Origin: a virus | DNA length: 39,118 nucleotides | Direction: 5' to 3' (one strand) | Virus record (IMG/VR): IMGVR_UViG_3300035070_000751 | Span: 1 to 39,118 of that record | Shown: positions 9,399 to 28,447 of the stretch, piece after piece | How the letters are laid out: each line of letters starts with the position of its first letter | Numbering within the stretch: the stretch's first letter is position 1 | Notes under the pieces: generated by a model | Database searches by the model: none | Told to the model about the DNA's origin: nothing | What the model saw: the letters and a program-made list of their open reading frames with translations, nothing else | Translations under genes and position numbers: made by a program

Positions 9399-9399
9399 A

Positions 9400-12279: not shown

Positions 12280-12332
12280 AATATTACCTACCTCTCTATA
12301 CCTTTTTCTTATTGATTCATTATACATTCCCA

Positions 12333-12683: not shown

Positions 12684-12686
12684 ATA

Positions 12687-14118: not shown

Positions 14119-15026
14119 TATGCGTTCTCAACTTCGATGAAGTTGTCCTCTGCATTTACTATGCTCTCTACTGCACTAGACATATCTTCATCTATAGATT
14201 TCTGAGAAGCCTGTTCAGACCACTCTGAAACTATGTACTGATTATAGTTTTCTATCCATGCTAGAAAATCAGCGAACATAGTTTGGTCTGTATCTGACAC
14301 ATCAAGTTTCTCTGAAAGATTCAAAGTGCTAGTAGGCAAATAGAACTGACTACCATTAGGTAATTTTCTTGCTTCAGTAGCTAGACTAATGGTATGTTGC
14401 ACAGGAAGTGCCTTCATCTTGGCTAACTTAGTAAAGTTAGAACCTATAGTTTTGAACGCATCTCTATTATCTATCTCCCATATAAAAGGAGTAGTCTCAA
14501 ACTTAGATGACTTACCATTAGCGTCTGTAACGTCATGTAAATCTACTAAGCCAAACACAACTCTGACACGTTTGACTTGCTTGATTAAGTCTTTAGTCTT
14601 ATCAGGCAATGCATCAAAGTCCTGTATCCACCCTGCAGGTTTACCACAGTTGAACCCACCTTGATTATCTTTCAAATCTTTATTAAGATTATCTGCCATA
14701 ACTGTCTTATGGTAGACACCCAAAGGTTCTCCTGCTTTTGCAGAGTTATTCTTTACAAACCTTTTATACATATATCTTTGCATGAAAGGTCTGATGGTAG
14801 CAGTCTTACCATATAGAACATCCTTCTCAGGAATATCTAATTTGTAAGTACCACCTTTCACAACAACCTCATCACCATTTATGATAGGTGTGTGTTGTAT
14901 TCTAAATCTAGGTAGTTGTTGAGCCTTCTTCTCATTAGTAGAGGAAGTCTCGTTGGCTATACCCATAGCCTTTGCCATAGATTCATAATTATTCGTGTCT
15001 ATGGTCACTAAGTTTGCTTCAGTCAT
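14118..15026 (-). CDS. Probable single-stranded DNA-binding protein
   Basis: 302 residues; AGGAG 7 bases before the ATG. No OB-fold motif can be proven by eye. The evidence is the position between DNA polymerase and the recombination exonuclease, a central basic and aromatic region (RPFMQRYMYKRF near residue 80; VRVVFGLVDL), and a C-terminus of about 30 residues rich in Asp/Glu. Such acidic tails are the partner-binding element of phage ssDNA-binding proteins. It could instead be another replication accessory factor. It sits at the expected position relative to other marine podovirus replication modules. Confidence 0.55.
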   Translation of the reverse strand: MTEANLVTIDTNNYESMAKAMGIANETSSTNEKKAQQLPRFRIQHTPIINGDEVVVKGGTYKLDIPEKDVLYGKTATIRPFMQRYMYKRFVKNNSAKAGEPLGVYHKTVMADNLNKDLKDNQGGFNCGKPAGWIQDFDALPDKTKDLIKQVKRVRVVFGLVDLHDVTDANGKSSKFETTPFIWEIDNRDAFKTIGSNFTKLAKMKALPVQHTISLATEARKLPNGSQFYLPTSTLNLSEKLDVSDTDQTMFADFLAWIENYNQYIVSEWSEQASQKSIDEDMSSAVESIVNAEDNFIEVENA

Positions 15027-15067
15027 ACATTTTCTCCTTTCTTATTTTAAAATGTCTCATAGTTATA

Positions 15068-17086: not shown

Positions 17087-18306
17087 GCACTATACCTCGC
17101 TGTGTGTGGGTTAATATTACAATTAATCATGCCATGCCAACCTGTAATCTTGTTCTTCACAACATTCAAATGTCGCATATTAGATTGCTCATCTACACCC
17201 TCGACATTCGCAGGTTGACCTATGAGTATCATGAGGTCTGCTTCTGCTGCCTTACCTGTACGTGAGCCTTCCATCATAGCCTGATTAAGAACTTGTCTAC
17301 CCTCTGCTTCTGCAGAGAGTTGTGACATATAGAATATAACACAATCATATTGTTTTGCAATCTGTCTTGCATATATTGCATTAGCCTTGAGTGCTTCATC
17401 AGGTCTTGCATAACCTGACATACGTGCAAACTTATCTCCCATGTCTATTACTACGACATCAGGCTTGACACTCTTACACATACTCTCTACCCATGCCATG
17501 TCTTCTCCTGTCACATCTTTAATCTTTAGGTTAGGTGATACAATCTTGTATCTATCCCTAGCTTGTGATGGGTTATCCTTTATCTCATACTTATCCATGT
17601 TAGATGAAGCAGTAAGATATCTAAACCCAACTCTATCATAAGATTCCTCGTTACACAAGACAACACACTTAGCACCTTGTCTTGCGAAACCATTCTCTCC
17701 TACAAGCATAGAAGCATGAAAGGATGTCTTACCTGTATTAGGTCTAGCACCTATCTCTACAAGATAGCCACCATTGACACCCTCTACTTTCCTAGCTAAC
17801 TCAGGCAGATTAAATGTCCAACGTGTCTGTTGATTCTGCTTTGCTATCAAAGTATCAAATGATATATCATCCCATTCAATCTTCATCTCAGGTGTGAAGT
17901 CATCATTATACTTCTCTAGTAAATCACGCAATGGTTTCATACTTGTCTGTGTGCCATTCACGAAATCAAAACCTAAGTTAGCTACATCTTCTCCTATAAC
18001 TTGTTGGAACAGTTTAGATAACACATCTTGTGCTACGTCTGTTCCCATAGGTGTCTGTCTTTTAATATCATTAAACAGAGCAGAGTATCCCTGCTTCTGT
18101 GCAGTTGTCATAGCAGGATTGCTAGACAAGAACAGAGCCTGTAACTCATCAGGTGTTACATCTCTATTATATTTTCTCATAGCTTTATCTATCGTGTGCT
18201 TGATAGTTCTAGCATCTTTGCTAAACAATCTATCAGGACATCTTGCACCTCTATGGTCTTCATAGAAGTCTTTATTCATTAAGCTACGTAGTAGTGATAG
18301 TTCCAT
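17083..18306 (-). CDS. DnaB-like replicative helicase
   Basis: 407 residues; AGGAG before the ATG. RecA-type ATPase core with Walker A GARPNTGKTS (186-195), Walker B VVVID (284-288), a downstream sensor region FYMSQLSAEAEG and an arginine-rich MMEGSRTGKAAEADLM segment as in DnaB/T7 gp4 helicases. The N-terminal 140 residues are helical and lack a primase domain. Primase is a separate gene upstream, so the T7 gp4 functions are split here. It would unwind DNA at the fork ahead of the polymerase encoded next. It overlaps both flanking genes. Confidence 0.9.
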   Translation of the reverse strand: MELSLLRSLMNKDFYEDHRGARCPDRLFSKDARTIKHTIDKAMRKYNRDVTPDELQALFLSSNPAMTTAQKQGYSALFNDIKRQTPMGTDVAQDVLSKLFQQVIGEDVANLGFDFVNGTQTSMKPLRDLLEKYNDDFTPEMKIEWDDISFDTLIAKQNQQTRWTFNLPELARKVEGVNGGYLVEIGARPNTGKTSFHASMLVGENGFARQGAKCVVLCNEESYDRVGFRYLTASSNMDKYEIKDNPSQARDRYKIVSPNLKIKDVTGEDMAWVESMCKSVKPDVVVIDMGDKFARMSGYARPDEALKANAIYARQIAKQYDCVIFYMSQLSAEAEGRQVLNQAMMEGSRTGKAAEADLMILIGQPANVEGVDEQSNMRHLNVVKNKITGWHGMINCNINPHTARYSA

Positions 18307-19078
18307 GTTGGTTCTCCTTTGGGGTTAGTTTGTTTAAGTTTATAAAGTCCTCTTCTTTTCTATACTTCAAATCGTCTTTGAGTTTTAATACTCTGACATC
18401 ATCTACGTATCCTCGTAACTCTTTTGCAAAGGCAAGGGTCTTGGGCATTGCATCAGGGTCTAAGGCAATTATAGCAGTCGAGAACTGTGCTAGGTATCTC
18501 TTGTGTGAATTGCTTAATGATGTTCCCAACACAGCTACCCCTACATAAACACCATCGCCTACAACAGATGCACTCACACAATCCTCAACGACTACTCCCA
18601 CATTACCATAACCATAAGTAAAAGGCAAGTCACTTTTTCCATATCTTTTCCATTTAGGTAAACGGAAACCTAAAGACCTACCAACTGCATCAACAATTAG
18701 TCCATCTTTCTTGATAGGAAACACGACTCTACTCTCCTTTACGTCATAGTAAAGTGGTATTCTTTTATAATCCAACCCAAACTCTAATGCATATCTTACG
18801 ACTTCAATCCTGTCGTTGTGATATACTACATGTTCAGGCATATTAAATTCTTCTGACATCTTCTTAGTTTCAAATACAGAGTTCCTAATATCATCTACGG
18901 ATAGATTAACTTTCTTTGTACCTGATATTGGACAAGAAGATTTGTAACAGTTCCAAACTAGCCTACCCATGTTGTTGGTTACAGTAAATGTTTTATAACC
19001 ATTACAACTAGGACAGTTAATTCTTTTTGATTCTCCTACACTTATATGTAAATCATTTATTATATTATATATATTCAT
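18284..19078 (-). CDS. DNA primase (zinc-binding plus TOPRIM)
   Basis: 264 residues. The N-terminal zinc-binding motif has C22-x2-C25 and C44-x4-C49. The TOPRIM domain shows VVVEDC (E165) and IIALDPDA (D207, D209), the metal-binding acidic triad. No helicase domain is attached, and the protein ends about 25 residues into the next gene's overlap. It makes RNA primers for lagging-strand synthesis with the helicase encoded immediately downstream. The ATG at 19078 lacks a clear SD, but it lies 2 bases after the recombinase stop, so reinitiation is likely. Confidence 0.9.
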   Translation of the reverse strand: MNIYNIINDLHISVGESKRINCPSCNGYKTFTVTNNMGRLVWNCYKSSCPISGTKKVNLSVDDIRNSVFETKKMSEEFNMPEHVVYHNDRIEVVRYALEFGLDYKRIPLYYDVKESRVVFPIKKDGLIVDAVGRSLGFRLPKWKRYGKSDLPFTYGYGNVGVVVEDCVSASVVGDGVYVGVAVLGTSLSNSHKRYLAQFSTAIIALDPDAMPKTLAFAKELRGYVDDVRVLKLKDDLKYRKEEDFINLNKLTPKENQHGTITTT

Positions 19079-19079
19079 A

Positions 19080-19973
19080 TTATATACTCTTATTGTAATT
19101 ATTACGTAATGTCAAGGCATTTTCTGCACTAGCATACGTATTTTTCATGTAAGGCTTGACCGATTGTGGGTTTGCATGACCTGTAACGGACATAATCTGA
19201 CCCATAGGTACACCTGCTTCTACCATTTCAGTAGTTCCTGTCCTACGTAAGTCCGATATACGTAACTCATTCGGTAATCCTGACTCTTTTATTATTCTTC
19301 GTGCTACTTTTGACAGTCTTTGCATAGCATATGGACTGTAAACACCCTTCATTGGTGTTGGATAGGGTGCAACATAGGGTTGAAAGTCATAATCTTTTGC
19401 CTGTTCTTTAAGCATTTCTAATAAGTCAAGAGAAATAGGCAGGTGTACTACACTTCTTCTCTTTGACTGTTGCAAATTTAACACACCTTTGTCAAAATCT
19501 ATGCTAGAAAACTGTAACATTCTCATATCTCCTACCCTCTGACACCATTCGTATGCCATTTGTACTATCAATCCCAAGTTTCTATACTTGAAATCATTGT
19601 AACAGTAGTTAAGAAATATCCTAACTTGTTCTTTTGTCCAAGTTACATTCCTTATATGAGTAGTTTTTCTTTTGAAAGTAGAGAACGGATTGCTCTCTGC
19701 ATATCCCATCTCCATTCCAAACGAATACATCTTACGTGCAACTGCACATACTGAGTTAGCTAAGTAAGTTCCCCTACTCAACCATACCTCGTATCCTCTT
19801 CGTGCAGTCGCACCTGTCATGTCAGACAATAAAATACTTGACATCTTTTTTCCGTCAACTTCTGTGTCCAACAGAACGTTGCAACAGTATTGATAATCAT
19901 GTTTAGTTTTGTCTGCTAAGTTATTGTAATCGTTAGACAAAAGGTACTTTTCATTAAGCGATTTTAAGTTCAT
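19080..19973 (-). CDS. int: Tyrosine recombinase (phage integrase)
   Basis: 297 residues from the ATG at 19973 (GGAG 5 bases upstream). The N-terminal half is a helical SAM-like core-binding domain (about 10-100). The catalytic domain shows R146 (CQRVGDMR), K171, S240-D-L-R243, G265-H266 and Y275, nine residues after H266. The first His of the usual HxxR box is Ser here. The family cuts and joins DNA at att sites; some pelagiphages integrate into tRNA genes. No attP, excisionase or repressor was recognised nearby. It is unusual in lying inside the replication operon, directly upstream of primase. Confidence 0.88.
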   Translation of the reverse strand: MNLKSLNEKYLLSNDYNNLADKTKHDYQYCCNVLLDTEVDGKKMSSILLSDMTGATARRGYEVWLSRGTYLANSVCAVARKMYSFGMEMGYAESNPFSTFKRKTTHIRNVTWTKEQVRIFLNYCYNDFKYRNLGLIVQMAYEWCQRVGDMRMLQFSSIDFDKGVLNLQQSKRRSVVHLPISLDLLEMLKEQAKDYDFQPYVAPYPTPMKGVYSPYAMQRLSKVARRIIKESGLPNELRISDLRRTGTTEMVEAGVPMGQIMSVTGHANPQSVKPYMKNTYASAENALTLRNNYNKSI

Positions 19974-20463
19974 TATTCTCCATCCATTTTGGTTTCTCTG
20001 TATACTTGTACCTCGCAAATCTAGATTTGTCAACAATATAAAATTTTCTATATGCTTTTATGGGAAAGAACTCATCTGTCTTCAAGTCATCATGCCCACT
20101 AAAACATTGTGGGTGTCTAGTAAGTTTACCTTCAGGTATCTTAAATCTACCTTGAAATAAAGATAGCTGATGCTTACAAGCACCATGATATTTACCATAT
20201 CTATCATTATACTCATGTAGCATAGCACTATACAATTTGTATGCAAAGATATAGTTTTCTCTAGTTTCCATTGCCCATAGGGTGCAAGGATGCTTCTGAT
20301 GTACAGGTTTGTACAATCCTTCTCGTTCTGCATAGTCAGGTGCATGATGCCATAGTGCAGTACATAACATCTGTGCTTCTTCTAGAGGCATCTTGACTAC
20401 GTGTTGGTCACACAAAGATTGTGCAATACCTATTGGACTGTGTTCTATAATAAATCTATTCAT
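19954..20463 (-). CDS. Conserved His/Cys-rich phage protein, unknown function
   Basis: 169 residues from the ATG at 20463 (TAGGAG upstream); a longer reading to 20523 would have no SD. Distinctive conserved-looking segments are CDQHVVKMPLEEAQML, HPCTLWA, ENY and EYNDRYGKYHGA. I recognise this pattern from phage and mycobacterial proteins of unknown role. Similar proteins are sometimes labelled pyrimidine-dimer glycosylases, but the DenV active-site features are not visible here. It overlaps the recombinase start by 20 bases. Confidence 0.7.
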   Translation of the reverse strand: MNRFIIEHSPIGIAQSLCDQHVVKMPLEEAQMLCTALWHHAPDYAEREGLYKPVHQKHPCTLWAMETRENYIFAYKLYSAMLHEYNDRYGKYHGACKHQLSLFQGRFKIPEGKLTRHPQCFSGHDDLKTDEFFPIKAYRKFYIVDKSRFARYKYTEKPKWMENNELKIA

Positions 20464-20543
20464 AATCCTACTCCTATAAATCCTAGTATGAATGCCATAC
20501 AACACATACCTAATATAAACCAAATTAATTCTTCATTATTCAT
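20460..20543 (-). CDS. 27-residue single-pass membrane peptide
   Basis: Very short ORF: polar MNNEE start, then about 21 hydrophobic residues with two adjacent Cys. Its ATG overlaps the stop of the upstream mini-gene (ATGA), and its own stop overlaps the ATG of the next gene (ATGA), so coupling is tight at both ends. The length makes it uncertain, but the organisation is that of a real gene. Function unknown. Confidence 0.45.
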   Translation of the reverse strand: MNNEELIWFILGMCCMAFILGFIGVGL

Positions 20544-20644
20544 GCTAATAACTCCATACCTACTTGTATCATTGCATATGCATAAAGCACTAGGATAACA
20601 CTCACTAATACCTTATTCATAAAATCGTTTGAACCATCATTCAT
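20540..20644 (-). CDS. 34-residue membrane peptide
   Basis: Short ORF starting at 20644. A polar N-terminus (MNDGSNDFMNK) is followed by a membrane-length hydrophobic segment of about 20 residues. It overlaps the upstream gene by 8 bases and the downstream mini-gene by 4. Together with the 27-residue peptide it forms a pair of consecutive single-pass membrane peptides. Function unknown. Confidence 0.45.
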   Translation of the reverse strand: MNDGSNDFMNKVLVSVILVLYAYAMIQVGMELLA

Positions 20645-20789
20645 TTTCAATCTCCTCAAAATGTTTAACTAACATATCTAAACCTTTACAGACACCTCTA
20701 TGCTCTGCTTTCGTGTGGCTATCATTTACCCACTCGTCATCTGCTTTAATGTCTGCGACTGCTCTTTTTATTTGTTCTAATTTAACCAT
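20637..20789 (-). CDS. 50-residue soluble hypothetical protein
   Basis: Starts at 20789, overlapping the methyltransferase stop by 8 bases. Charged and helical, with IKRAVADIKADDEW and a Glu-rich C-terminus (VKHFEEIENE). There is a single Cys. It is part of the leftward operon between the methyltransferase and two tiny membrane peptides. No family recognised. Confidence 0.55.
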   Translation of the reverse strand: MVKLEQIKRAVADIKADDEWVNDSHTKAEHRGVCKGLDMLVKHFEEIENE

Positions 20790-21963
20790 AAACAAAATAT
20801 CCTTTCTCATAATTAATTGATTTTATTTTTTTAGGCAATAGCATCTCTCCTAATATATGTGCAATCACATCAACTGTCCACCCATTACCAATCATCTTGT
20901 ATCTTTGTGTCTTTGACACACCCTCTGTATAATTGTCAGGTAGAGTCTGTAATCTCTCACACTCCACAGGAGTTAGCTTTCTCCATGTCATACCTTCTAC
21001 CACAACATTATCTTTTTGTACAGTAGTTAAACAATTAGTCTTGTCATCACTACGTACTTCTACTTGTGGTTCTAAAGGTAAATCCATTTGATAATCTTTA
21101 CGTACACCATTGGCATCTAACCTACGATTGACAATCCTACCACCTTTAGGTGAATAGGTTGCAACCTTTGGTTCTCTGTTACCACCTTGCATAGTAAGTA
21201 ACGTAGGTGCTTTACCATCCATGTGATACACTTCCTTAGTTGCTCTGTAGTTGTAGTGTGCATACTCTTCTGCTTCTCCTACAGGCATAAGTCTATCAAC
21301 CAATGTCATGCCATTGTTACCTGCACCCTTGTACATAGTAGCAGTTGTACACAATGCCTTTTGATTAGGGTTCTTGTGATGTCTAGCATTACGTTCATTG
21401 ATAGGAACAGGTGGCTCGTCATGGTCAGTCTGTAATATATCCTTGAGTACCAAGCCTTTGTCTTCCAAAGGTGGAATCATTATCTGTTCATACTTGCCAT
21501 TGATGTATGTACCAAACCAATAGTTTCTCCATCTGTTTTGTGCAGAAACTTTGCTTGAGTTTAGTAACTGTGGTGGAAAACCCATGTGTTCTGTAATCAC
21601 ATCCTCAAACTGTTTCTTCATTCGTACATTCTCAAGCAATACATATCTAGGTTTTAGCTCATTCATAATTCGTACAAACTCAAAGAATAATTTGGAACGT
21701 GGGTCATCAAATGCCAACTGCTCTCCTGCAAAGGAGAACCCCTGACATGGACTACCACCCATAAGTAAATCTATCTGAGGTAAATCCTCAGTATCTATTT
21801 TAGTTACATCACCCAACTGTATTATGTCAGGATGATTCTTGTTTGCTATCTTAATAGCATAAGGGTCAATCTCTGCAGAAAAATATTTATCTACAGATAC
21901 ATTGGCTCTGTCCATAGCAAGTCTTCCTACTTCCATACCACCAAATAAATTTAATACATTCAT
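20782..21963 (-). CDS. Orphan DNA cytosine-5 methyltransferase
   Basis: 393 residues; AGGAG upstream of the ATG. Motif I appears as NLFGGMEVG (FGG instead of the usual FAGxGG), motif IV as SPCQGFSF with catalytic C73, motif VI as ENV (E111), motif VIII as QNRWRNYWFG (142-151), and the C-terminal motifs as RLQTLPDNYT and YKMIGNGWTVDV. S-adenosylmethionine is the methyl donor. No restriction endonuclease gene was seen beside it, so it probably protects phage DNA from host restriction or marks it for regulation. The target sequence cannot be read from the protein. Confidence 0.93.
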   Translation of the reverse strand: MNVLNLFGGMEVGRLAMDRANVSVDKYFSAEIDPYAIKIANKNHPDIIQLGDVTKIDTEDLPQIDLLMGGSPCQGFSFAGEQLAFDDPRSKLFFEFVRIMNELKPRYVLLENVRMKKQFEDVITEHMGFPPQLLNSSKVSAQNRWRNYWFGTYINGKYEQIMIPPLEDKGLVLKDILQTDHDEPPVPINERNARHHKNPNQKALCTTATMYKGAGNNGMTLVDRLMPVGEAEEYAHYNYRATKEVYHMDGKAPTLLTMQGGNREPKVATYSPKGGRIVNRRLDANGVRKDYQMDLPLEPQVEVRSDDKTNCLTTVQKDNVVVEGMTWRKLTPVECERLQTLPDNYTEGVSKTQRYKMIGNGWTVDVIAHILGEMLLPKKIKSINYEKGYFVYG

Positions 21964-22181
21964 TGTATTTTCTCCTTTCTAATTGGCATACAACCAACAT
22001 GAATTATTTCAGATTTTGTAAGTCTAGGTTGAATTATTTCAACTATACTTTCGTCAAGACTTTTCTTATTCTGAGTGTAAAATAAATTACACTCATTATA
22101 AGATGAGAAAGTTCTCTGCTCAGTTATACTGTTCAGAGTTCTATTCTCTGTCATGAACATGACGTAGAGAACCCAAATCAT
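21960..22181 (-). CDS. Small protein with hydrophobic N-terminus
   Basis: 73 residues. Its ATG overlaps the stop of the DUF932 gene (TAATG), and its stop overlaps the methyltransferase ATG. It opens with a short hydrophobic segment (MIWVLYVMFM), then a polar region with two Cys (NECNLF, VGCMP). The layout resembles two other small proteins in this window (29097 and 32369) that also begin with a hydrophobic stretch and carry an early Cys next to Leu. Export or membrane insertion is possible. No function assigned. Confidence 0.6.
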   Translation of the reverse strand: MIWVLYVMFMTENRTLNSITEQRTFSSYNECNLFYTQNKKSLDESIVEIIQPRLTKSEIIHVGCMPIRKEKIQ

Positions 22182-23029
22182 TAGGCTACTAACAAGTCTT
22201 GGAAAGGTTTAGAATCTACCCATTGAGCAACCTGTTGCTCTCTGTTCCACATAGACTGTGCTTGGGTATCATTACCTGTATTACGTAATGAGAAACCATT
22301 CCTCTCATCTGCATAAGATGAGTAGTTAGTAAATGCAGAGTACAAAGCATACATATTCTTACCTCTCTTGCTTATCTCTTGTTGTGCAAGAGAATACATC
22401 TTCTTAGAAAGTCTTTCAGACTTTACTATCTTATCAAGAAGTAATCTTACATTTGCCTTGATAGGTGTCTCTGCCCATACCTGTAACATTCTGCAATGCT
22501 CGTCAAAGTCTTGCCTTGCAGTTGTCAAGTCAGATATAAAGTTCTCCATGCTAAACCCACTTGTGTTTTTCTTTTTGAGTTGAGCATACTTACCTCTAAC
22601 TTGTTTGTTAGTACAAAAGAAATCAATACCCCCAAACAATGCTATGTTAGAACATGAGCCATCAATACCATGAAGTAAAATGATTCTCTCATTTACTTCT
22701 GTCTGATGCTTGTCAGATGTTATCTTGTATGACACGTTAGGTAATGTTATATCTAACATTGCCCATGCAGTATCTCTACAGATTCTCCACTTGACCTTTA
22801 CATCTTCTAACTCATGTGGTTCTCTATTGCTAACAATAGCTTCCTCACACCCATAGAAATATGTAGGGTGGTCAACACACTTGAATGTGTTGCTCACATG
22901 ACTACAAGCCTTGTCTGTCATGGTATTAATACCAAACTTGTATCCACTTAATCGACTAGGCTCGTACCTAATCCCATAATTTAGACTCTCGTCTATCTCA
23001 AATAATCTTGGTGTTACATCTAATGGCAT
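22181..23029 (-). CDS. DUF932-like protein
   Basis: 282 residues; GGAG before the ATG. The central part (HGIDGSCSNIALFGGIDFFCTN, about residues 118-140) fits the DUF932 pattern in which a S/G-x-DGS turn is followed by a Cys-Asn segment, then a basic stretch with Thr/Ser. DUF932 proteins occur in phages and plasmids and have no settled function; nucleic-acid or recombination roles have been suggested. Several segments carry intragenic hairpins, for example AATGTTA-TATC-TAACATT at 22742-22759. Confidence 0.65.
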   Translation of the reverse strand: MPLDVTPRLFEIDESLNYGIRYEPSRLSGYKFGINTMTDKACSHVSNTFKCVDHPTYFYGCEEAIVSNREPHELEDVKVKWRICRDTAWAMLDITLPNVSYKITSDKHQTEVNERIILLHGIDGSCSNIALFGGIDFFCTNKQVRGKYAQLKKKNTSGFSMENFISDLTTARQDFDEHCRMLQVWAETPIKANVRLLLDKIVKSERLSKKMYSLAQQEISKRGKNMYALYSAFTNYSSYADERNGFSLRNTGNDTQAQSMWNREQQVAQWVDSKPFQDLLVA

Positions 23030-23031
23030 AA

Positions 23032-23667
23032 TTATTCTCCTTTCTTTTTGTCAATATAAATTCTTAAATGTGTTGAGTCTTCAATGGATTGTCCAAATGA
23101 AGCCTTGCCTGTGCCATACAACTCAGGCTTGAGGTGTTGCCCTCGTACTCTCATGGTGTATGACTCGTCATTGAGATACATCTTCATACCTCGTGCTAAC
23201 TTCTTACCATACTCATCATTAGGTATCTCACTAAAGACATACCTATGTCCTTGAGTGTGGTGTTCTTCTGCATATGCTTTTCTCCACCTGTGTTCTTCCT
23301 TACGGAAAGTATCAATGATATTGTCTCTGCTTGTTATTTTACAAGCATACTCATTGAGTTGTTCATCTTTTTCTTCAATGATATCATTCAAAGTTTCTAC
23401 TTGGCTACGTAGTCCATCAATAATATGGTCTTTAGCTTTGATAGTATCTTCTTCGTTTAAAACGATATCATTAGCACCCATCATAACTTTTGTATTTTGT
23501 TTCACAAATGCTCTAACTAAATGTTGGAAGTCCATGTGTGAGATAGGTATCTCTTTACCCTCTGCTTCTGAATAGTATGTCTTGTTGTTCAAGTCATACA
23601 TATCACTTGCTAGTCTACCTGATTCATTAATCAGACCTAACATCTGTACTAGTCTATGTATCTTCAT
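23032..23667 (-). CDS. Coiled-coil protein, unknown function
   Basis: 211 residues; GAGGAG before the ATG. Residues about 70-130 form a charged coiled coil (repeated I/L with E, D, K). The last 70 residues are basic and Gly/Tyr-containing (RYVFSEIPNDEYG and RVRGQHLKP). No catalytic motif was recognised. It lies between two small unknown early genes. Confidence 0.65.
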   Translation of the reverse strand: MKIHRLVQMLGLINESGRLASDMYDLNNKTYYSEAEGKEIPISHMDFQHLVRAFVKQNTKVMMGANDIVLNEEDTIKAKDHIIDGLRSQVETLNDIIEEKDEQLNEYACKITSRDNIIDTFRKEEHRWRKAYAEEHHTQGHRYVFSEIPNDEYGKKLARGMKMYLNDESYTMRVRGQHLKPELYGTGKASFGQSIEDSTHLRIYIDKKKGE

Positions 23668-23668
23668 A

Positions 23669-23887
23669 TTAATACTCCTCTACAAATAAAAATTCAATTC
23701 GTGACTTTGGATATACTGCTCTTGCCATATCTATGGCATGGTCAATCGCATAGTTGTATCCACTCTTTTCTAAGGCTTGTGGGTGTACATTCACTTTACC
23801 TTTGTTGCCATCAATAGACAACCCCACCACCCAAAAGGGTGAGGGGTATGTGCTACGATTAGGCAAGGTGCTAATCTTATTAAACAT
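23669..23887 (-). CDS. Hypothetical protein
   Basis: 72 residues. Its ATG overlaps the upstream stop (TAATG). Mixed alpha/beta composition with a C-terminal SRIEFLFVEEY strand. The coding sequence contains a strong GC-rich inverted repeat (CACCC-AAAA-GGGTG near 23826-23839). No family recognised. Confidence 0.6.
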   Translation of the reverse strand: MFNKISTLPNRSTYPSPFWVVGLSIDGNKGKVNVHPQALEKSGYNYAIDHAIDMARAVYPKSRIEFLFVEEY

Positions 23888-24264
23888 TAGGCAACCTTAC
23901 CTTTCCTACCAACTTTAGCAGTAGCTAGGTTAGATATAGTATCTACCTTGAACTCGCCAAAGGTAATAGCCTTGTATGGCTTACCCTTTAACAAGGCTCT
24001 GCAGAAAGAGGTCAAATCCTGCATGACTAACATGAATGCAGATGAAGAAGTATTCTGTATGTAGAATCCCTCATTCTTTCTAGCACTTCTGCTAAGGTCA
24101 AGCACTAGGTCATAGACTCTTTCTTTAGAAAGATTCTTACCTGTAACTTCCTTGTATAATACAGACGCTACATCATATAGCTTCTGTCCTCGCTCAGTCA
24201 AGCATTGACCTGTACGACCTGTAGATTGTTTCCAATATGAAACATTGATAGTTTTCTTACTCAT
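23887..24264 (-). CDS. Hypothetical early protein
   Basis: 125 residues; AAGGAG lies before the ATG, within a weak AAAC...GTTT hairpin. Basic, with a helical middle (KNLSKERVYDLVLDLSRSARK) and a C-terminus ending GRKGKVA. It is preceded, 35 bases upstream, by a copy of the GTCCGA-TCGGAC box. No family recognised. Confidence 0.6.
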   Translation of the reverse strand: MSKKTINVSYWKQSTGRTGQCLTERGQKLYDVASVLYKEVTGKNLSKERVYDLVLDLSRSARKNEGFYIQNTSSSAFMLVMQDLTSFCRALLKGKPYKAITFGEFKVDTISNLATAKVGRKGKVA

Positions 24265-24298
24265 AATAAACTCCTTTCGTTTGTTGGTTAAGTAAGGT

Positions 24299-24313
24299 GT
24301 CCGACAATCGGAC
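24299..24313. repeat. GTCCGA-CAA-TCGGAC box, copy a
   Basis: Perfect 6-bp inverted repeat with a CAA spacer, between the 46-residue gene and the gene starting at 24264. It is identical in core to copies c, d and f. It could be an operator or an RNA hairpin in the leader of the downstream gene. Confidence 0.8.
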
Positions 24314-24323
24314 AGTTGTTTTG

Positions 24324-24464
24324 CTAGGCAAAAAACTTCTCTTGCCTTGCGTGTTTAACTTTTCTCTGCAACTTACGTTCACGCTTCCAATCGTCACGCT
24401 TCTGTTTCTTTGCAGTTTTCTTTACAGAAATTTTCTCAAACATTTTATCCTCATACTTTCGCAT
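24324..24464 (-). CDS. 46-residue very basic peptide
   Basis: Start at 24464, chosen because AAGGAG precedes it; a longer open frame upstream has no SD. Nearly half the residues are Lys or Arg (for example KKTAKKQKRDDWKRERK). It overlaps the ArfA-like gene by 14 bases. Such composition fits RNA or ribosome binding, possibly functioning with the ArfA-like peptide. No family recognised. Confidence 0.55.
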   Translation of the reverse strand: MRKYEDKMFEKISVKKTAKKQKRDDWKRERKLQRKVKHARQEKFFA

Positions 24465-24576
24465 TGCTTTTCTCCTTCTTTCTATTGTATGAACCTTTGC
24501 CCTTCTTGTTAGGCACAACTTGTTTCTTGATAAACATGAGTGCCTTTGCAATAGGGTTAATCTTTTTTATCTTCAT
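24451..24576 (-). CDS. ArfA-like ribosome-rescue peptide
   Basis: 41 residues, starting at 24576 with GGAG upstream and TAA-ATG adjacency to the previous gene. The peptide has NPIAKAL, then a basic helix, then VVPNKKGKGSYNRKK. In E. coli ArfA the corresponding conserved part is VEKNKKGKGSYMRK, the segment that enters the empty mRNA channel of a stalled ribosome and recruits RF2. The phage version is shorter than E. coli ArfA and ends soon after the motif, as does the mature truncated ArfA. Rescue activity is inferred from this motif only. Confidence 0.6.
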   Translation of the reverse strand: MKIKKINPIAKALMFIKKQVVPNKKGKGSYNRKKEKSNAKV

Positions 24577-24792
24577 TTAAATCTCCACCTTGTAGAACTT
24601 GCCATCGTTGTCATCTCTGACAACAACACTTGCGAAGTCATATAAGTTAGTTACATTACCCACACTTATGTTTAACTTTGTTAAAGAATAACCCATAAGT
24701 GCTAGGTCATTTATGAGTTGCTTGTAGGTACTGTTCTCTACGACCATATCCCACAACAACTGCTTGATTTTTACGTTAGTTAAAATTTTCAT
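24577..24792 (-). CDS. Hypothetical protein
   Basis: 71 residues from the ATG at 24792, chosen because GGAG is 6 bases upstream; an ATG at 24804 overlaps that SD. Mixed alpha/beta with a C-terminal VVVRDDNDGKFYKVEI strand pair. It is the first gene after the AT-rich hairpin at 24811-24852, which also contains a promoter-like TTGACT-N17-TATAAC. No family recognised. Confidence 0.6.
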   Translation of the reverse strand: MKILTNVKIKQLLWDMVVENSTYKQLINDLALMGYSLTKLNISVGNVTNLYDFASVVVRDDNDGKFYKVEI

Positions 24793-24810
24793 ATCGCACT
24801 CCATATATAT

Positions 24811-24852
24811 GTTATATAACTACTTTCATTGAAAGTCAAGTAGTTATATAAC
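24811..24852 (-). promoter_or_regulatory. AT-rich inverted repeat 1 (15-bp arms, 12-nt loop) with promoter-like hexamers
   Basis: Arms GTTATATAACTACTT (24811-24825) and AAGTAGTTATATAAC (24838-24852), loop TCATTGAAAGTC. On the leftward strand the loop edge gives TTGACT (24834-24839) and the far arm gives TATAAC (24811-24816), separated by 17 bases, a good sigma-70 spacing. It may thus be a promoter with a palindromic operator, an RNA hairpin in a read-through transcript, or both. Confidence 0.6.
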
Positions 24853-24864
24853 TTATTCTGTTGA

Positions 24865-25254
24865 TTAAATGTACACACGAGGTACTACTCCATTCTCGTG
24901 ATGTAAAGATTCTAAACGAATCCAACCTACCCAATCCCTTGGAATCTCATTCCACTCATCGTGGTCTTCGCCCTTGTGCATGAAGTAGTCATCTGTGTAA
25001 GGGTTATACTTAACCCTATCCCAATCTATTGGGTTAAAGTTATTGTCATTGTTTTCAACAATGTAACCTACTGCAAAGGCATGAACATTCTTCTTGCCTT
25101 CCTCACGTACTCGCTTCTGTCCACTCTCCCATATGGTATAGTATCCATTACGAAGTTTAAGATACTTCTTGTAGTCTATGACTAAACCACTCTTGCATGA
25201 CACAATACTCCATATGAGTTTGTGTAAGTTCCAATATACTCGTACTTTTTCCAT
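24865..25254 (-). CDS. Conserved phage protein, unknown function
   Basis: 129 residues. The N-terminus VRVYWNLHKLIWSI and the middle GQKRVREEGKKNVHAFAVG match a small family I know from many phages of Gram-negative bacteria (NLHK...WS...R.RV..EGRKNVHA). No function is established. The Shine-Dalgarno sequence sits in the apex of a perfect hairpin immediately before the ATG. Its coding sequence holds several perfect hairpins, e.g. GGGTTA-TACT-TAACCC at 25011-25026. Confidence 0.72.
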   Translation of the reverse strand: MEKVRVYWNLHKLIWSIVSCKSGLVIDYKKYLKLRNGYYTIWESGQKRVREEGKKNVHAFAVGYIVENNDNNFNPIDWDRVKYNPYTDDYFMHKGEDHDEWNEIPRDWVGWIRLESLHHENGVVPRVYI

Positions 25255-25255
25255 G

Positions 25256-25272
25256 TTAAACTCCTAGTTTAA
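25256..25272 (-). promoter_or_regulatory. SD-in-loop hairpin before 129-residue gene
   Basis: On the message the sequence is TTAAACT-AGG-AGTTTAA, a 7-bp stem with a 3-nt loop, ending one base before the ATG. The AGGAG ribosome binding site spans loop and stem. Melting of the AU-rich stem would be needed for initiation. Confidence 0.65.
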
Positions 25273-25982
25273 TGTTGAACGATTGCTATGCTCTTTGCCT
25301 TAACTTCAGACCCACCACAGAGCATACATGATGAGCATTGTACTCGCCTACCCATTTCTTTTGAAGCAGGACAAAGTATCTCTTGACCCTTGACAACTTC
25401 GTTGACATCTTGAATGACACGAAAAGTTCTGTGTCCAAAATCCCAATGCTTCTTGGCAGTAGCCAAGTTGTCTGCACTAACCATGTATATGGTTGGGTCG
25501 AAACTTGAGTTAGGATTGTCATACTGATGACAGTATGCAGTATGCTTTCTAGCATCTTGTATCAAGCTATCCCAAATATATTTGGGTACTGCACCACCAT
25601 CACCATAAGTTCCAATCCTTACATCTTTATCTTTGCCAAGCAAAGACAATGCATTATGCCCTTGCATGGTAGGATATGCACCATTGACCCATTGCTTCCA
25701 AACGTTAAGCACTCCTTGAAATAACTTGACGTAGCAAGTTCTTTTGATAGCTTGTTTACGATTAGGGTCATCTGTGGGTATTCCTCTGTGAATACAGTTA
25801 CCACAGTTAGCTTCATCTAAGCCATACTTAGATGCGTCTCTTGGGTCATGAGGTGTGATGATGTATGTCTGCATCATAGCACCAGTTTTTGAATTGCTTG
25901 ACTTACTAGTCAAGGCAATGGCAATGATACGTTCCCCATTAAGTAGGGAAGCACCATCGTAAATCACATATCCATTTGGCAT
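25269..25982 (-). CDS. Conserved Cys-rich phage protein (DUF7227-like)
   Basis: 237 residues. Conserved features are KTG.MMQTYII, then CGNCIHRG (C60, C63) with CYV (C83), a GTYGDGGAVP loop, and a C-terminal Cys cluster CSSCMLCGG. The two Cys groups suggest metal binding. I recognise the arrangement (CG-C-HR, R-G-YGD, W, final C-C-C) as a conserved protein of unknown function in many phages, DUF7227 as far as I recall. SD AGGAG is in the loop of a perfect hairpin, and a GTCCGA box lies just upstream. A nucleic-acid role is plausible. Confidence 0.65.
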   Translation of the reverse strand: MPNGYVIYDGASLLNGERIIAIALTSKSSNSKTGAMMQTYIITPHDPRDASKYGLDEANCGNCIHRGIPTDDPNRKQAIKRTCYVKLFQGVLNVWKQWVNGAYPTMQGHNALSLLGKDKDVRIGTYGDGGAVPKYIWDSLIQDARKHTAYCHQYDNPNSSFDPTIYMVSADNLATAKKHWDFGHRTFRVIQDVNEVVKGQEILCPASKEMGRRVQCSSCMLCGGSEVKAKSIAIVQH

Positions 25983-25983
25983 A

Positions 25984-25998
25984 TTAACTCCTAGTTAA
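25984..25998 (-). promoter_or_regulatory. SD-in-loop hairpin before the Cys-rich gene
   Basis: On the message TTAACT-AGG-AGTTAA, a 6-bp stem with a 3-nt loop containing the SD core, one base from the ATG. It has the same architecture as 25256-25272 but a different stem. Confidence 0.65.
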
Positions 25999-26002
25999 AA
26001 GT

Positions 26003-26017
26003 GTCCGACAGTCGGAC
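26003..26017. repeat. GTCCGA-CAG-TCGGAC box, copy b
   Basis: Same box as copy a with spacer CAG. It lies between AT-rich repeat 2 and the SD hairpin of the Cys-rich gene. If the TATAAC at 26019-26024 on the leftward strand is a -10 element, the box covers the start of transcription. Confidence 0.8.
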
Positions 26018-26025
26018 TGTTATAT

Positions 26026-26063
26026 ATTATTTATATATTCATATATATTCATATATAAATAAT
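26026..26063. repeat. AT-rich inverted repeat 2 (13-bp arms, 12-nt loop)
   Basis: Arms ATTATTTATATAT (26026-26038) and ATATATAAATAAT (26051-26063), loop TCATATATATTC. It occupies the whole gap after the 45-residue gene, followed leftward by TATAAC and box b. Confidence 0.75.
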
Positions 26064-26067
26064 TATA

Positions 26068-26205
26068 CTATTCAGGAAGCAATGCTTCTGCTTGTGCTTC
26101 CTTGTGTACTATTTCTTCTTCAACATAAGCCATAGCTTCGCTATAAGTCATGTTTTCTTTTTCCATGAGTTCGCTTACTCGTAACTCTACGTATGAATCC
26201 CACAT
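26068..26205 (-). CDS. 45-residue acidic helical protein
   Basis: Starts at 26205, overlapping the upstream stop (TAATG). Mostly Glu/Ala/Met helix (ELMEKENMTYSEAMAYVEEE). It ends 4 bases before AT-rich repeat 2. The TAATG junction and operon position support it. No family recognised. Confidence 0.55.
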   Translation of the reverse strand: MWDSYVELRVSELMEKENMTYSEAMAYVEEEIVHKEAQAEALLPE

Positions 26206-26420
26206 TAGTCATTCCTTTTCATGTAAATCATTACTAGTCCAGTAACTAGTAATAGTAATCCCATAGCACCAAGAGATGCTATAATTAATATTCCCAAAGG
26301 GAATGGTTGATTGGCTTCTGCACTCATGTAGTAATCATTAGGATTACTCATGCTAAACCATGCCATTAATACGATTGGTATTCCCATAAGGAATACAAAA
26401 ACACCATCAAATTTACTCAT
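26205..26420 (-). CDS. Two-helix membrane protein
   Basis: 71 residues from the ATG at 26420, which overlaps the preceding stop (TAATG). Two membrane segments at about 6-22 and 41-64, joined by a polar loop (NPNDYYMSAEANQP). The C-terminus is basic (YMKRND). Its coding sequence contains seven or more perfect hairpins, including ATTACTAG...CTAGTAAT at 26230-26253 and GTATTCC-CATAA-GGAATAC at 26378-26396. Function unknown. Confidence 0.65.
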   Translation of the reverse strand: MSKFDGVFVFLMGIPIVLMAWFSMSNPNDYYMSAEANQPFPLGILIIASLGAMGLLLLVTGLVMIYMKRND

Positions 26421-26731
26421 TATTTTGCCCTCGCTAATTGTTGTGTGCTTCTCCAAGGTAAATTATCCATATAAGATAATTTATTATTCAGTCTATTCAA
26501 CTGAGTTGCTAGTCTGATATATTTAATATACCACTTTCTTGTGTGGTCACATAAACCCTTATCTACTTTGTAGAAGTTATGCTTACCCACATCTATAGTA
26601 CGTAACGATAAATCGTCATTACCAGTTTCCATATCTTCGATATAGGAATTTAATGCATCTGTAACCATATCTAACTCATCTTGAGTTACAGTCAACTTTA
26701 TATTTTTAATCACAATATTTGATTTAGCCAT
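26420..26731 (-). CDS. Hypothetical early protein
   Basis: 103 residues from the ATG at 26731. A longer frame would run through a GTCCGA box and the SD hairpin and is rejected. A beta-rich N-terminus (NIVIKNIKLTVTQDEL) and helical C-terminal half are visible. The SD GGAG is in the loop of a perfect hairpin. No family recognised. Confidence 0.6.
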   Translation of the reverse strand: MAKSNIVIKNIKLTVTQDELDMVTDALNSYIEDMETGNDDLSLRTIDVGKHNFYKVDKGLCDHTRKWYIKYIRLATQLNRLNNKLSYMDNLPWRSTQQLARAK

Positions 26732-26733
26732 TA

Positions 26734-26748
26734 TAAAACTCCGTTTTA
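26734..26748 (-). promoter_or_regulatory. SD-in-loop hairpin before 103-residue gene
   Basis: On the message TAAAAC-GGA-GTTTTA, 6-bp stem, 3-nt loop. The GGAG starts in the loop, 7 bases before the ATG. Confidence 0.65.
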
Positions 26749-26752
26749 AAGT

Positions 26753-26767
26753 GTCCGACAATCGGAC
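26753..26767. repeat. GTCCGA-CAA-TCGGAC box, copy c
   Basis: Perfect copy in the gap between the 63-residue gene and the SD hairpin at 26734. The order box, SD hairpin, gene is the same as at copy b. Confidence 0.8.
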
Positions 26768-26781
26768 TGTTAAGGAAGTGC

Positions 26782-26973
26782 CTATTTAAAGGCACTATCC
26801 CACTCTGCAGGTGTAATACCTGTCATGATGAACTCACGTTCATCTGCCGATAAGTTCGGCATAGCGTTCTGAATAAGAACACCACTTTCCCAAGAGCTTA
26901 ATTGCTCTTGAGTTACCTCTATTTCCATAGAGTTAGTGTTACCACTAAGAGAAGAAGTTCTTGTAATTAACAT
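26782..26973 (-). CDS. Conserved small phage protein, unknown function
   Basis: 63 residues. The C-terminal half, LIQNAMPNLSADEREFIMTGITPAEWDSAF, belongs to a very widespread small phage family I recognise (W..G.LIQ.A.P.L...EREF..TGI.P.EWD..F). It has no assigned function. Every 15-25 bases of its coding sequence is part of a perfect hairpin, including one over the start codon (ATTAAC-ATA-GTTAAT, 26966-26980) and one over the stop (AGTGCCT-ATTTAA-AGGCACT, 26777-26796). Confidence 0.75.
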   Translation of the reverse strand: MLITRTSSLSGNTNSMEIEVTQEQLSSWESGVLIQNAMPNLSADEREFIMTGITPAEWDSAFK

Positions 26974-26987
26974 AGTTAATCCTTTCT

Positions 26988-27002
26988 GTCCGACAATCGG
27001 AC
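26988..27002. repeat. GTCCGA-CAA-TCGGAC box, copy d
   Basis: Perfect copy just upstream of the start-codon hairpin of the 63-residue gene. TATAAC (leftward strand, 27007-27012) precedes it, as at copy b. Confidence 0.8.
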
Positions 27003-27012
27003 TGTTGTTATA

Positions 27013-27054
27013 ATAATAATTAAATATTCACAAATATTCATATTTAATTATTAT
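27013..27054. repeat. AT-rich inverted repeat 3 (15-bp arms, 12-nt loop)
   Basis: Arms ATAATAATTAAATAT (27013-27027) and ATATTTAATTATTAT (27040-27054), loop TCACAAATATTC. It includes the stop codon of the gene ending at 27044. The loop is identical to that of repeat 4, but the stem is different. Confidence 0.78.
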
Positions 27055-27256
27055 ATAAATCCTCAAACTCTTGAAGAATCTCTAGATTCTCAGTTACAGT
27101 TTCAGACTTACGTCTGAGCCTTTCGATAGCAAAGATACCACAATCATAAATGATTGGTTCATCTTTTCTTTGCTCATTTTCATGAGCAACCCAAGAAGAC
27201 CTAAGTCTTCTATGAGGGTTGATTCTTTTGGCAAAGTTTATAACTTTGTTCTTCAT
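27044..27256 (-). CDS. Hypothetical basic early protein
   Basis: 70 residues; its ATG overlaps the upstream stop (ATGA). A basic N-terminus (KRINPHRRLRSSW) is followed by an acidic helical C-terminus (ENLEILQEFEDLYNN). The coding sequence is a near-continuous run of perfect hairpins, e.g. TTGCTCAT-TTTC-ATGAGCAA (27170-27189) and AGAAGAC-CTAA-GTCTTCT (27194-27211). No family recognised. Confidence 0.6.
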   Translation of the reverse strand: MKNKVINFAKRINPHRRLRSSWVAHENEQRKDEPIIYDCGIFAIERLRRKSETVTENLEILQEFEDLYNN

Positions 27257-27489
27257 GATGACATAACCTTTCTATAATATTTTTCTGAAATATTATGAAA
27301 CATAATACCTTTGGTTACCTTTTTACCAATTCTATAGCCTTTAATAAAGGCTTTAAAATTAACTTGTTTAGGTATATACTCAAAGAGTATATAAAGTTTG
27401 TAATCAATTCTTAATTGATTAATCATCTCTTCTTCTGAAGAGAATGGTTGAGAACGATACAAAGTATCTTGACAAATATAATAATGCAT
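27253..27489 (-). CDS. Hypothetical early protein
   Basis: 78 residues from the ATG at 27489, chosen for its SD; an upstream TTG has none. Tyr/Ile/Lys-rich, with no membrane segment. The coding sequence contains 9-bp hairpins at 27274-27296, 27373-27393 and 27401-27421. No family recognised. Confidence 0.6.
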   Translation of the reverse strand: MHYYICQDTLYRSQPFSSEEEMINQLRIDYKLYILFEYIPKQVNFKAFIKGYRIGKKVTKGIMFHNISEKYYRKVMSS

Positions 27490-27491
27490 AA

Positions 27492-27506
27492 TTAATCTCC
27501 GATTAA
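27492..27506 (-). promoter_or_regulatory. SD-in-loop hairpin before 78-residue gene
   Basis: On the message TTAATC-GGA-GATTAA, 6-bp stem, 3-nt loop, SD core in the loop and ATG 7 bases after GGAG. It is the fourth example of this design, with a fourth stem sequence. Confidence 0.65.
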
Positions 27507-27522
27507 AAAGTGAAGGTAGCAA

Positions 27523-28137
27523 TTAAGCTACCTTCTTTGAAGGAACTTTAAGTTCCTTGTACTGAGAGTTAATCTCTCTTGCAAAGTCCTTGATAGAGAT
27601 GTTATGCATCTCTAACTGAACTAGCACTTCAAGTGCTAAGTCAGAAGCAGTCATCTGCTTCTTCTCTTGAGCCTTTGGCTCATTAGTGTCCGACTTCGGA
27701 CTGTCTTGAACCTTTGGTTCATCTTGAGACTTTGTCTCATCAGAAGCCTTTGGCTTATCTGACTTTGGCTTGGTAGCCTTGTAAAAGGCTTTTAGAAGAG
27801 CAGACAAAGATGTATATCTTTGTTTAGTAGATTGTAACCATGTTACAATTTTCTCATGATTCTCAAAGAGAATCTTAGCATCTGACCTTCTCTGTTTGCT
27901 TATGGTATTTATACCATACTTCTTAGCAAGTTCCTTGCTAATCAATTTAACATTCTCAAGTTTGAGAATATTAACGATTAACTGACCAATCTGATAGTCT
28001 AAACTATCAGTATTGAAAACAACCTTAGTTGTTTTAGCTTTCAGAGACTTTGTCTCATTAGCATCTAGCTTAGCTAGATTAGAACCTATGAACTGTAGTT
28101 CATTCTGAGATGGAAAGTTTTTAGTTTGTTTAGCCAT
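27523..28137 (-). CDS. First leftward early protein, hairpin-saturated gene, unknown function
   Basis: 204 residues; AGGAG before the ATG. Residues about 1-120 are alpha/beta and basic. Residues 124-158 are a low-complexity linker with 6-residue repeats (DETKSQ, DEPKVQ, NEPKAQ). The C-terminal 45 residues are helical (TASDLALEVLVQLEMHNISIKDF). No known domain was recognised. It is the promoter-proximal gene of the leftward block, a place often used by phages for host-takeover or regulatory proteins. Almost every 20-30 bases of the gene form a perfect hairpin, and one GTCCGA box is embedded in frame. The stop codon lies in the loop of GAAGGTAGC...GCTACCTTC (27512-27535). Confidence 0.7.
   Translation of the reverse strand: MAKQTKNFPSQNELQFIGSNLAKLDANETKSLKAKTTKVVFNTDSLDYQIGQLIVNILKLENVKLISKELAKKYGINTISKQRRSDAKILFENHEKIVTWLQSTKQRYTSLSALLKAFYKATKPKSDKPKASDETKSQDEPKVQDSPKSDTNEPKAQEKKQMTASDLALEVLVQLEMHNISIKDFAREINSQYKELKVPSKKVA
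27668..27756. repeat. Tandem 18-20-nt coding repeat, each unit a hairpin
   Basis: Five units in frame in the 204-residue gene: TGAGCC-TTT-GGCTCA (27668-27682), GTCCG-ACTT-CGGAC (27688-27701), TGAACC-TTT-GGTTCA (27707-27721), TGAGAC-TTT-GTCTCA (27725-27739) and AAGCC-TTT-GGCTT (27744-27756). Spacing is 18-20 bases. The TTT loop is constant, while the stems differ with matching changes on both arms. Confidence 0.85.
27688..27701. repeat. GTCCGA-CT-TCGGAC box, copy e, inside coding sequence
   Basis: A copy of the box with a 2-base spacer, read in frame as part of the linker of the 204-residue protein. Flanks (AGT before, TGT after) also match the intergenic copies, so it is not a bare palindrome coincidence. 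Confidence 0.7.
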
Positions 28138-28159
28138 GTTGGTTTCTCCTATGTTATAT

Positions 28160-28205
28160 ATAATTAAAAAATACTTTCACAAATATTCAAGTATTTTTTA
28201 ATTAT
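28160..28205. repeat. AT-rich inverted repeat 4 (17-bp arms, 12-nt loop)
   Basis: Arms ATAATTAAAAAATACTT (28160-28176) and AAGTATTTTTTAATTAT (28189-28205), loop TCACAAATATTC. It lies in the leader of the first leftward gene, at the expected start of transcription from the promoter at 28201-28229. Confidence 0.8.
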
Positions 28206-28229
28206 TATAACCTTAGTGTTTTCTGTCAA
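28201..28229 (-). promoter_or_regulatory. Leftward early promoter candidate
   Basis: On the leftward strand TTGACA (28224-28229) is followed after 17 bases by AATAAT (28201-28206), or after 14 bases by TATAAT (28204-28209). The consensus -35 and the position ahead of the first leftward gene support it; the -10 choice is uncertain. Confidence 0.55.
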
Positions 28230-28261
28230 GCCTTTTTTTATATACTAAAGTATATAAGTTT

Positions 28262-28276
28262 GTCCGACAATCGGAC
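28262..28276. repeat. GTCCGA-CAA-TCGGAC box, copy f
   Basis: The copy farthest right, about 33 bases upstream of the -35 of the leftward promoter and thus possibly an upstream regulatory site rather than a leader hairpin. Confidence 0.8.
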
Positions 28277-28282
28277 TGACCA

Positions 28283-28303
28283 TACTACCCTATGGGGGTA
28301 GTA
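28283..28303. repeat. Strong hairpin TACTACCC-TATGG-GGGTAGTA
   Basis: An 8-bp perfect stem with 5-nt loop, followed on the + strand by GTTTTG. It could terminate or attenuate rightward read-through weakly, but the T-run is short. Confidence 0.45.
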
Positions 28304-28447
28304 GTTTTGTACTCCTCCTCTTCAACACCTTGTCTTGTTGCAAAAATGCAACACTTTTTATGCTAAAGCATAGGCAACTGATAGTAAATGAGTTGTCAAG
28401 CAATGCTAAAGCATTGAATTTGCTATATTTTCTAAAGAAAATCAAGG

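Follow-up and report, generated by a model that had tools for sequence, protein, structure and literature searches.

The early operon of the window

The window is the whole of a 39,118-base virus record (IMGVR_UViG_3300035070_000751), and the 5' part of its leftward early operon is filled with short perfect hairpins. The leftward arm carries the genes for ribonucleotide reductase, a family A DNA polymerase, a DnaB-like helicase and a DNA methyltransferase, while the terminase gene lies on the rightward arm. The divergent region near 28.2–28.5 kb is where the leftward operon begins, with a good match to a sigma-70 promoter. Puniceispirillum phage HMO-2011 and Roseobacter phages CRP-345 and CRP-1 have DNA polymerases ~61% identical to that of the window, and identity to HMO-2011 is 61% for the DNA polymerase, 67% for the helicase and 74% for ribonucleotide reductase. 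By its related DNA polymerase and replication module, the window is classed as a relative of marine phage HMO-2011 and a member of the HMO-2011-type phages.

A dense hairpin array at the start of the early operon

Hairpins were counted as non-overlapping perfect stems of at least 6 bp with loops of 3–8 nucleotides (nt). There are 32 such stems in 27,000–28,110 and 16 in 26,220–27,000, in agreement with a preliminary description of the sequence, which had counted about 32, nearly all in coding frames, and about 15. The core of the array, 26,074–28,442, contains 55 hairpins, 43 of which are wholly inside coding sequence (78% of this stretch is coding). From 28 to 23 kb leftward, the density falls from 29 to 19, 13, 10 and 5 hairpins per kb, with 1–2 expected. 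Local Markov-1 shuffles give ~2 per kb (29 versus 2.2 at 27–28 kb and 19 versus 2.0 at 26–27 kb), close to the two or three per kb estimated beforehand. The right edge is exact at 28,442, where a sharp end had been noted. The array had also been described as fading left of ~24 kb, with the remainder of the window ordinary. The rightward arm is indeed at background, but the leftward fade is a gradient, and a ~2.5-fold excess persists at 8.3–22 kb (farther down the leftward arm, ~4 hairpins per kb versus 1.6 expected). The pattern lies only to the early side of the divergent promoter and is lacking on the late side at the same distance.

The excess persists when the encoded proteins are held constant. 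The first early gene, gp1 (27523–28137), contains 18 hairpins, compared with 2.1 ± 1.4 in synonymous shuffles (maximum 7, n = 200) and 5.1 ± 1.8 (maximum 10) in shuffles that preserve both codons and dinucleotides. Likewise, gene 25269–25982 contains 10 hairpins, compared with 1.6 ± 1.1 in synonymous shuffles. Because protein and codons are fixed in these comparisons, codon choice alone produces many of the hairpins, and the excess withstands the codon-preserving check proposed in the preliminary description. Folding energies, computed at 15 °C on 150-nt tiles with spans limited to 30 nt, give z = −15 over the first 3 kb. Loops of 1–6 nt are enriched in the window, with a maximum at 3–4 nt; loopless perfect palindromes and loops of at least 7 nt are not.

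Several simple explanations were rejected. Neither chance nor AT-richness explains the array, as shown by the shuffles (Markov, codon and dinucleotide) and by the 756 control bins described below. A single spreading repeat is ruled out because the stem sequences differ from each other. The claim that the stems are mutually different holds for most of them; the repeats are a multicopy minority, namely a GTCCGA-NNN-TCGGAC hairpin (five copies), an AT stem (three copies), hairpins encoding a DEPK linker, and the Shine-Dalgarno hairpins described below. Terminator-like sites, scored as a GC stem followed by a U run, number 11 versus 2.2 expected on both strands of 23.8–29.2 kb; they are plausibly a by-product of the hairpin excess and are too few to explain it. 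The Rfam 15 covariance models gave nothing above the gathering score and one sub-threshold match, and a tRNA search gave nothing.

Recurrence in other phages

The same gradient from the early 5' end is found in 13 phage sequences, so the excess is present in relatives, where the preliminary description had suggested looking for it; these include IMG/VR relatives and, with a weaker array, the isolates HMO-2011, CRP-1 and CRP-345. Three sequences with 86–90% protein identity to the window (L005, L006 and L007) show it from ~25–28 hairpins per kb, and two with 76–78% identical helicases (G001 and G002) reach 16–18 per kb. The density, which falls along the early genes, reaches 16 per kb in G008 (L010), 14 in CRP-1, 11–12 in HMO-2011 and 8 in CRP-345. 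Two unrelated uncultured phages, G005/G007 and G006, are also hairpin-positive; they have only one or two early gene families in common with the window and differ from it in the type of their replication or packaging genes. The early regions of G007 (L170) and G006 (L179) open with Lys-rich low-complexity proteins of 240 and 158 amino acids (aa), not recognisably related to gp1.

The array is absent from G003, whose helicase (68% identity) is as similar to that of the window as is the helicase of HMO-2011. It is also absent from CRP-2, CRP-603, CRP-207, CRP-212, HTVC033P, CRP-118, CRP-403, T7 and lambda, which rules out a general property of early genes. Control phages, divided into 756 one-kb bins, average 2.3 hairpins per bin, with a 99th percentile of 7 and no bin above 9; the peak in the window is 29. 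CRP-1 (positive) and CRP-2 (negative) were both isolated on strain FZCC0023. Thus, the host does not decide the trait, which belongs to the phage early module. Recurrence in independent metagenomes and cultured isolates rules out an assembly artefact.

Pairing is kept while stems change

Among relatives at ≥80% identity, 106 compensatory pairs were counted against 164 single broken pairs. The ratio of 0.65 compares with ~0.03 expected under independent substitution at ~14% divergence, an excess that we estimate at ~20-fold. Examples of compensated stems are AGTGCCT/AGGCACT to AGTGCTT/AAGCACT, TGAACC/GGTTCA to TGAGAC/GTCTCA, and TTATATAC/GTATATAA to TTAGATAC/GTATCTAA. Other stems are replaced entirely between relatives while the density is unchanged. 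This turnover at constant density indicates that pairing, rather than sequence, seems to be kept.

Stems with a single imperfection were compared with expectation on the sense strand. G-U imperfections are enriched most (147 observed versus 58 expected, 2.5 times), followed by A-G (138 versus 71, 1.9 times), A-C (90 versus 53, 1.7 times) and C-U (76 versus 48, 1.6 times). At 8300–22000, the sense strand has 31 G-U imperfections versus 9.9 expected, and 12 A-C versus 8.4. In several downstream genes, the gain in folding strength over synonymous shuffles is larger for the sense strand than for the antisense strand.

Shine-Dalgarno triloops and repeated elements

A subset of the hairpins displays GGA or AGG in the loop just before a start codon (Table 1). 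In most positive phages there are 2–7 of these on the sense strand, compared with 0–2 on the antisense strand and 0.0–0.3 in shuffles; G007 has one, and G006 and CRP-345 have none. Their stems vary (TTAATC/GATTAA, TTAAACT/AGTTTAA, CAATC/GATTG and AAGAGT/ACTCTT, also TTAAAC and TAAAAC). The arrangement is reminiscent of the SAS/ESAS of Cluster K mycobacteriophages, short Shine-Dalgarno-bearing repeats placed just before the start codons of many genes (PMC3203893). About half of the SAS/ESAS have upstream inverted repeats, their consensus is phage-specific and their function is unknown (PMC3203893). Unlike the hairpins here, whose stems vary around GGA/AGG, SAS/ESAS is one fixed asymmetric 13-bp sequence, 5'-GGGATAGGAGCCC, which is not the sequence at the ribosome-binding sites here. 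The 30–52 kb region of mycobacteriophage TM4 contains no comparable array, with at most 8 hairpins per kb versus 3.1 expected overall.

Two further elements are repeated within the array. Three long AT stems precede gp1 and two later genes, and two of the three have the same loop, GAATATTTGTGA. A 15-nt hairpin, GTCCGA-NTG-TCGGAC, occurs in five copies between early genes (24299–28276), where none is expected. A variant lies inside the gp1 frame, and the corresponding copy in G002 is read in a frame that gives SDVGQS instead of SPKSD. Other genomes have their own versions (GTTCGA..TCGAAC in L010, TTCCGA..TCGGAA in L006 and AGTCCG..CGGACT in HMO-2011), and therefore both arms have changed together across the copies in each genome. 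Such concerted evolution suggests a co-evolving binding partner.

Table 1. Coordinates of the hairpin array and associated features in the window
Feature	Position	Strand	Remarks
Core hairpin array	26074..28442	-	55 perfect stems of 6-9 bp, loops mostly 3-6 nt; 5' part of leftward early operon
Array continuation	22000..26073	-	Falling density, ~5-13 per kb
Weak continuation	8300..22000	-	Through replication genes; ~2.5-fold excess, loops 4-5 nt
Hairpins upstream of predicted promoter	28238..28442	-	Possibly a longer leader from another start site
Predicted sigma-70 promoter of early operon	28201..28229	-	TTGACA, 17 nt, AATAAT; consensus match only
Long AT stem, 15 bp, loop GAATATTTGTGA	28162..28203	-	Just downstream of promoter, upstream of gp1
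Second long AT stem, same loop GAATATTTGTGA	27013..27054	-	Upstream of gene 26782-26973
Third long AT stem	26024..26061	-	Upstream of gene 25269-25982
GTCCGATTGTCGGAC element, copy 1	28262..28276	-	
GTCCGATTGTCGGAC element, copy 2	26988..27002	-	
GTCCGATTGTCGGAC element, copy 3	26753..26767	-	
GTCCGACTGTCGGAC element, copy 4	26003..26017	-	
GTCCGATTGTCGGAC element, copy 5	24299..24313	-	
Variant GTCCGAAGTCGGAC	27690..27703	-	Inside gp1 frame, encodes SPKSD
Shine-Dalgarno hairpin TTAATC-GGA-GATTAA	27492..27506	-	Before start codon
Shine-Dalgarno hairpin TAAAAC-GGA-GTTTTA	26734..26748	-	Before start codon
Shine-Dalgarno hairpin TTAACT-AGG-AGTTAA	25984..25998	-	Before start of gene 25269-25982
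Shine-Dalgarno hairpin TTAAACT-AGG-AGTTTAA	25256..25272	-	Before start of gene 24865-25254
gp1, first early gene	27523..28137	-	204 aa; 18 hairpins inside the gene; no homologue found outside hairpin-positive phages
Conserved early gene (phrog_2554)	25269..25982	-	10 hairpins

gp1 and neighbouring features

Homologues of gp1 were found in L005, L006, L007, L066, L067, L079, G001, G002, G008, HMO-2011, CRP-1 and CRP-345, each of which has the array. Six related phages that lack the array were examined, and none has a homologue. The AlphaFold model of gp1 (mean predicted local distance difference test score, pLDDT, 75.6) contains a helical N-terminal domain, a disordered Lys/Pro/Glu linker and a C-terminal helical pair. 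gp1 matches no Pfam family above the cut-off, and its predicted structure has no fold match in the PDB. The fold search returned one strong viral match, S4S2E1 (28% identity), presumably the HMO-2011 homologue. In this lineage, the hairpin-positive early module always carries this novel first gene, although linkage within the module could by itself account for the co-occurrence.

The Lys/Pro/Glu-rich linker of gp1 (27650–27745, DETKSQDEPKVQD..NEPKAQ) is encoded as repeated hairpins, TGAGAC-AAA-GTCTCA and similar. Some linker hairpins are exchanged between relatives, as if by gene conversion. The phrog_2554 protein occurs in phages of many hosts, among them Mycobacterium, Klebsiella and Roseobacter, and has a conserved CPASKEMG motif and paired cysteines. 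Between the divergent promoters, a C-rich tract (28448–28530) with loosely repeated CACATAT/GCACGC-like units is a candidate origin or operator.

A proposed folded early message

The sense-strand Shine-Dalgarno triloops, the bias of the imperfections, the sense-strand folding of downstream genes and the restriction to the early operon point to the RNA level. These observations, with the compensatory changes and the gradient, make a structured-mRNA programme the best supported of the three causes named in the preliminary description. RNA-level selection in general is probably behind the array. We infer that RNA is the target of selection and that the main benefit is a shield for the first transcripts.

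Specifically, codon choice, together with amino-acid choice in tolerant proteins, would write the early message as hairpins. The immediate-early transcript would then carry a perfect hairpin of 6–9 bp with a 3–5-nt loop nearly every 35–40 nt, and its ribosome-binding sites would be displayed in triloops. Until phage proteins take over, the hairpins would protect the earliest transcripts against host decay of the RNase E type or against RNase-based defence. Such a shield would explain why density is highest in the first-transcribed genes and near background in the late genes. In T4, RNase E and RegB play major parts in the turnover of early mRNA, and structured RNA is protected from RegB (PMC3014915). 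That the array is a selected, densely folded immediate-early mRNA whose main role is to shield against single-strand-specific nucleases is a serious but tentative proposal, to which we give somewhat less than even weight. We advance with slightly more reserve the related idea of an operon-wide mRNA architecture that acts in cis as a shield, possibly with gp1 as a new hairpin-binding protein.

Several observations weigh against an mRNA shield. Where hairpins are densest, stems pair perfectly by Watson-Crick rules, so that the two strands have nearly the same folding energy and sense differs only weakly from antisense. Single changes to G-U outnumber those to A-C by a small margin (50 versus 37). 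The unpaired parts show no depletion of nuclease motifs, and loops longer than 6 nt are not enriched, though RNA stability alone would permit them. The array starts ~215 nt upstream of the best predicted promoter, so that either there is a further start site or the pattern is partly at the DNA level. In addition, the phages compared are related, and counts across them are non-independent.

Part of this evidence fits a mutational origin, in which template switching or quasi-palindrome correction, as the early region replicates, would overwrite one arm with a copy of the other and so create and preserve perfect small-loop palindromes, with no selected function. The core stems are strand-symmetric, small loops dominate, and transitions and transversions are equally common among the compensatory pairs, as they are in the background. 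Template switching can create and maintain RNA hairpins (PMC8794818), and quasi-palindrome mutations increase in highly transcribed yeast DNA (PMC3820800). The signatures of template switching were nevertheless not found: one-sided fractions are at or below those of controls (0.30 versus 0.40 at three changes), with no excess of clustered one-arm changes, and a single pair differs in 23 of 25 compensated stems. Correction of single pairs could still operate and would look identical to selection, yet a mutational process predicts neither the sense-strand triloops nor the sense-biased imperfections, and the pattern is present only on the early side of the divergent promoter. We consider a mutational origin, also raised in the preliminary description, unlikely, but like the hairpin–protein system below it is a serious rival.

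A hairpin–protein system, to which we assign a similarly low probability, would have a phage protein, with gp1 the prime candidate, bind short small-loop hairpins and coat or process the early mRNA. The purpose would be antitermination, protection or regulation, and the protein would bind the GTCCGA elements with high affinity and the coding hairpins with lower affinity. Consistent with this, gp1 is the first early gene and has the distribution described above, and the multicopy GTCCGA-type hairpins evolve in concert in each genome, with one copy inside gp1 in differing frames. On the other hand, the co-occurrence is perhaps mere linkage, gp1 resembles no Pfam family or PDB fold, and in the unrelated positives G005/G007 and G006 gp1 is not recognisable, the first genes there encoding different Lys-rich proteins. 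The binding array suggested in the preliminary description is accordingly possible for the GTCCGA element, while the coding hairpins share no sequence.

We regard two further roles as quite improbable. Local hairpins might block Rho loading on nascent RNA and so avert early termination of the long operon before antitermination. Small, fast-folding hairpins do tile the operon from its start, and known antiterminators (nut, put) use RNA hairpins. Against this, pyrimidine-C is not depleted in the unpaired parts (relative to late genes, the frequency of TC is 1.19-fold and that of CC 1.13-fold), and the density drops along the operon, whereas protection from Rho would be needed throughout. Hiding of a motif, Rho-type pyrimidine-C or other, was rejected: the k-mer bias of the stems vanishes once the unpaired parts are compared with late genes. 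Translation control, with hairpins slowing or ordering ribosomes on the early genes and Shine-Dalgarno triloops tuning initiation, would fit the triloops at several early gene starts per phage, but AU-rich stems of 6–9 bp are weak barriers to ribosomes and the untranslated leaders are also filled with hairpins.

Comparison with known systems and significance

The hairpin promoters of phage N4, like the array, belong to an early region of a phage genome and are built of small stems with loops of 3 nt. Unlike them, the coding hairpins here have no common motif, lie inside genes and reach 29 per kb. Positions 1–2000 of N4 (L190) contain 7 and then 5 hairpins per kb versus 1.2 expected, a mild version of the pattern.

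The mitochondrial genomes of Nematomorpha also have many perfect inverted repeats inside conserved, functional protein-coding genes (PMC6649704). Their arms reach 284 bp, whereas those of the window are 6–9 bp, have tiny loops and tile one operon. RNA hairpins formed by template switching, like those here, are perfect stems kept by compensatory changes and enriched in small loops (PMC8794818); the marks of that process, multi-pair compensation and clusters within an arm, are not enriched here. Within the HMO-2011 type, HMO-2011 and CRP-1 carry the array more weakly than the window, and the paper on this group does not mention hairpins, palindromes, promoters or secondary structure (PMC9038755). 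Literature searches targeting such a pattern found no description among open-licence papers. In our judgement the array is categorically new as a pattern; should its role prove to be stabilisation of mRNA, a known principle would be present here in an extreme form.

Were its origin mutational, the array would be the most concentrated formation of short palindromes met in this analysis. If the proposed role is true, a second message, dense local RNA structure, is overlaid on most of the coding sequence that is expressed first, in an abundant and cultured group of marine phages. Because CRP-1, with the array, and CRP-2, without it, infect one strain, the benefit of local mRNA structure in the first minutes of infection is directly testable.

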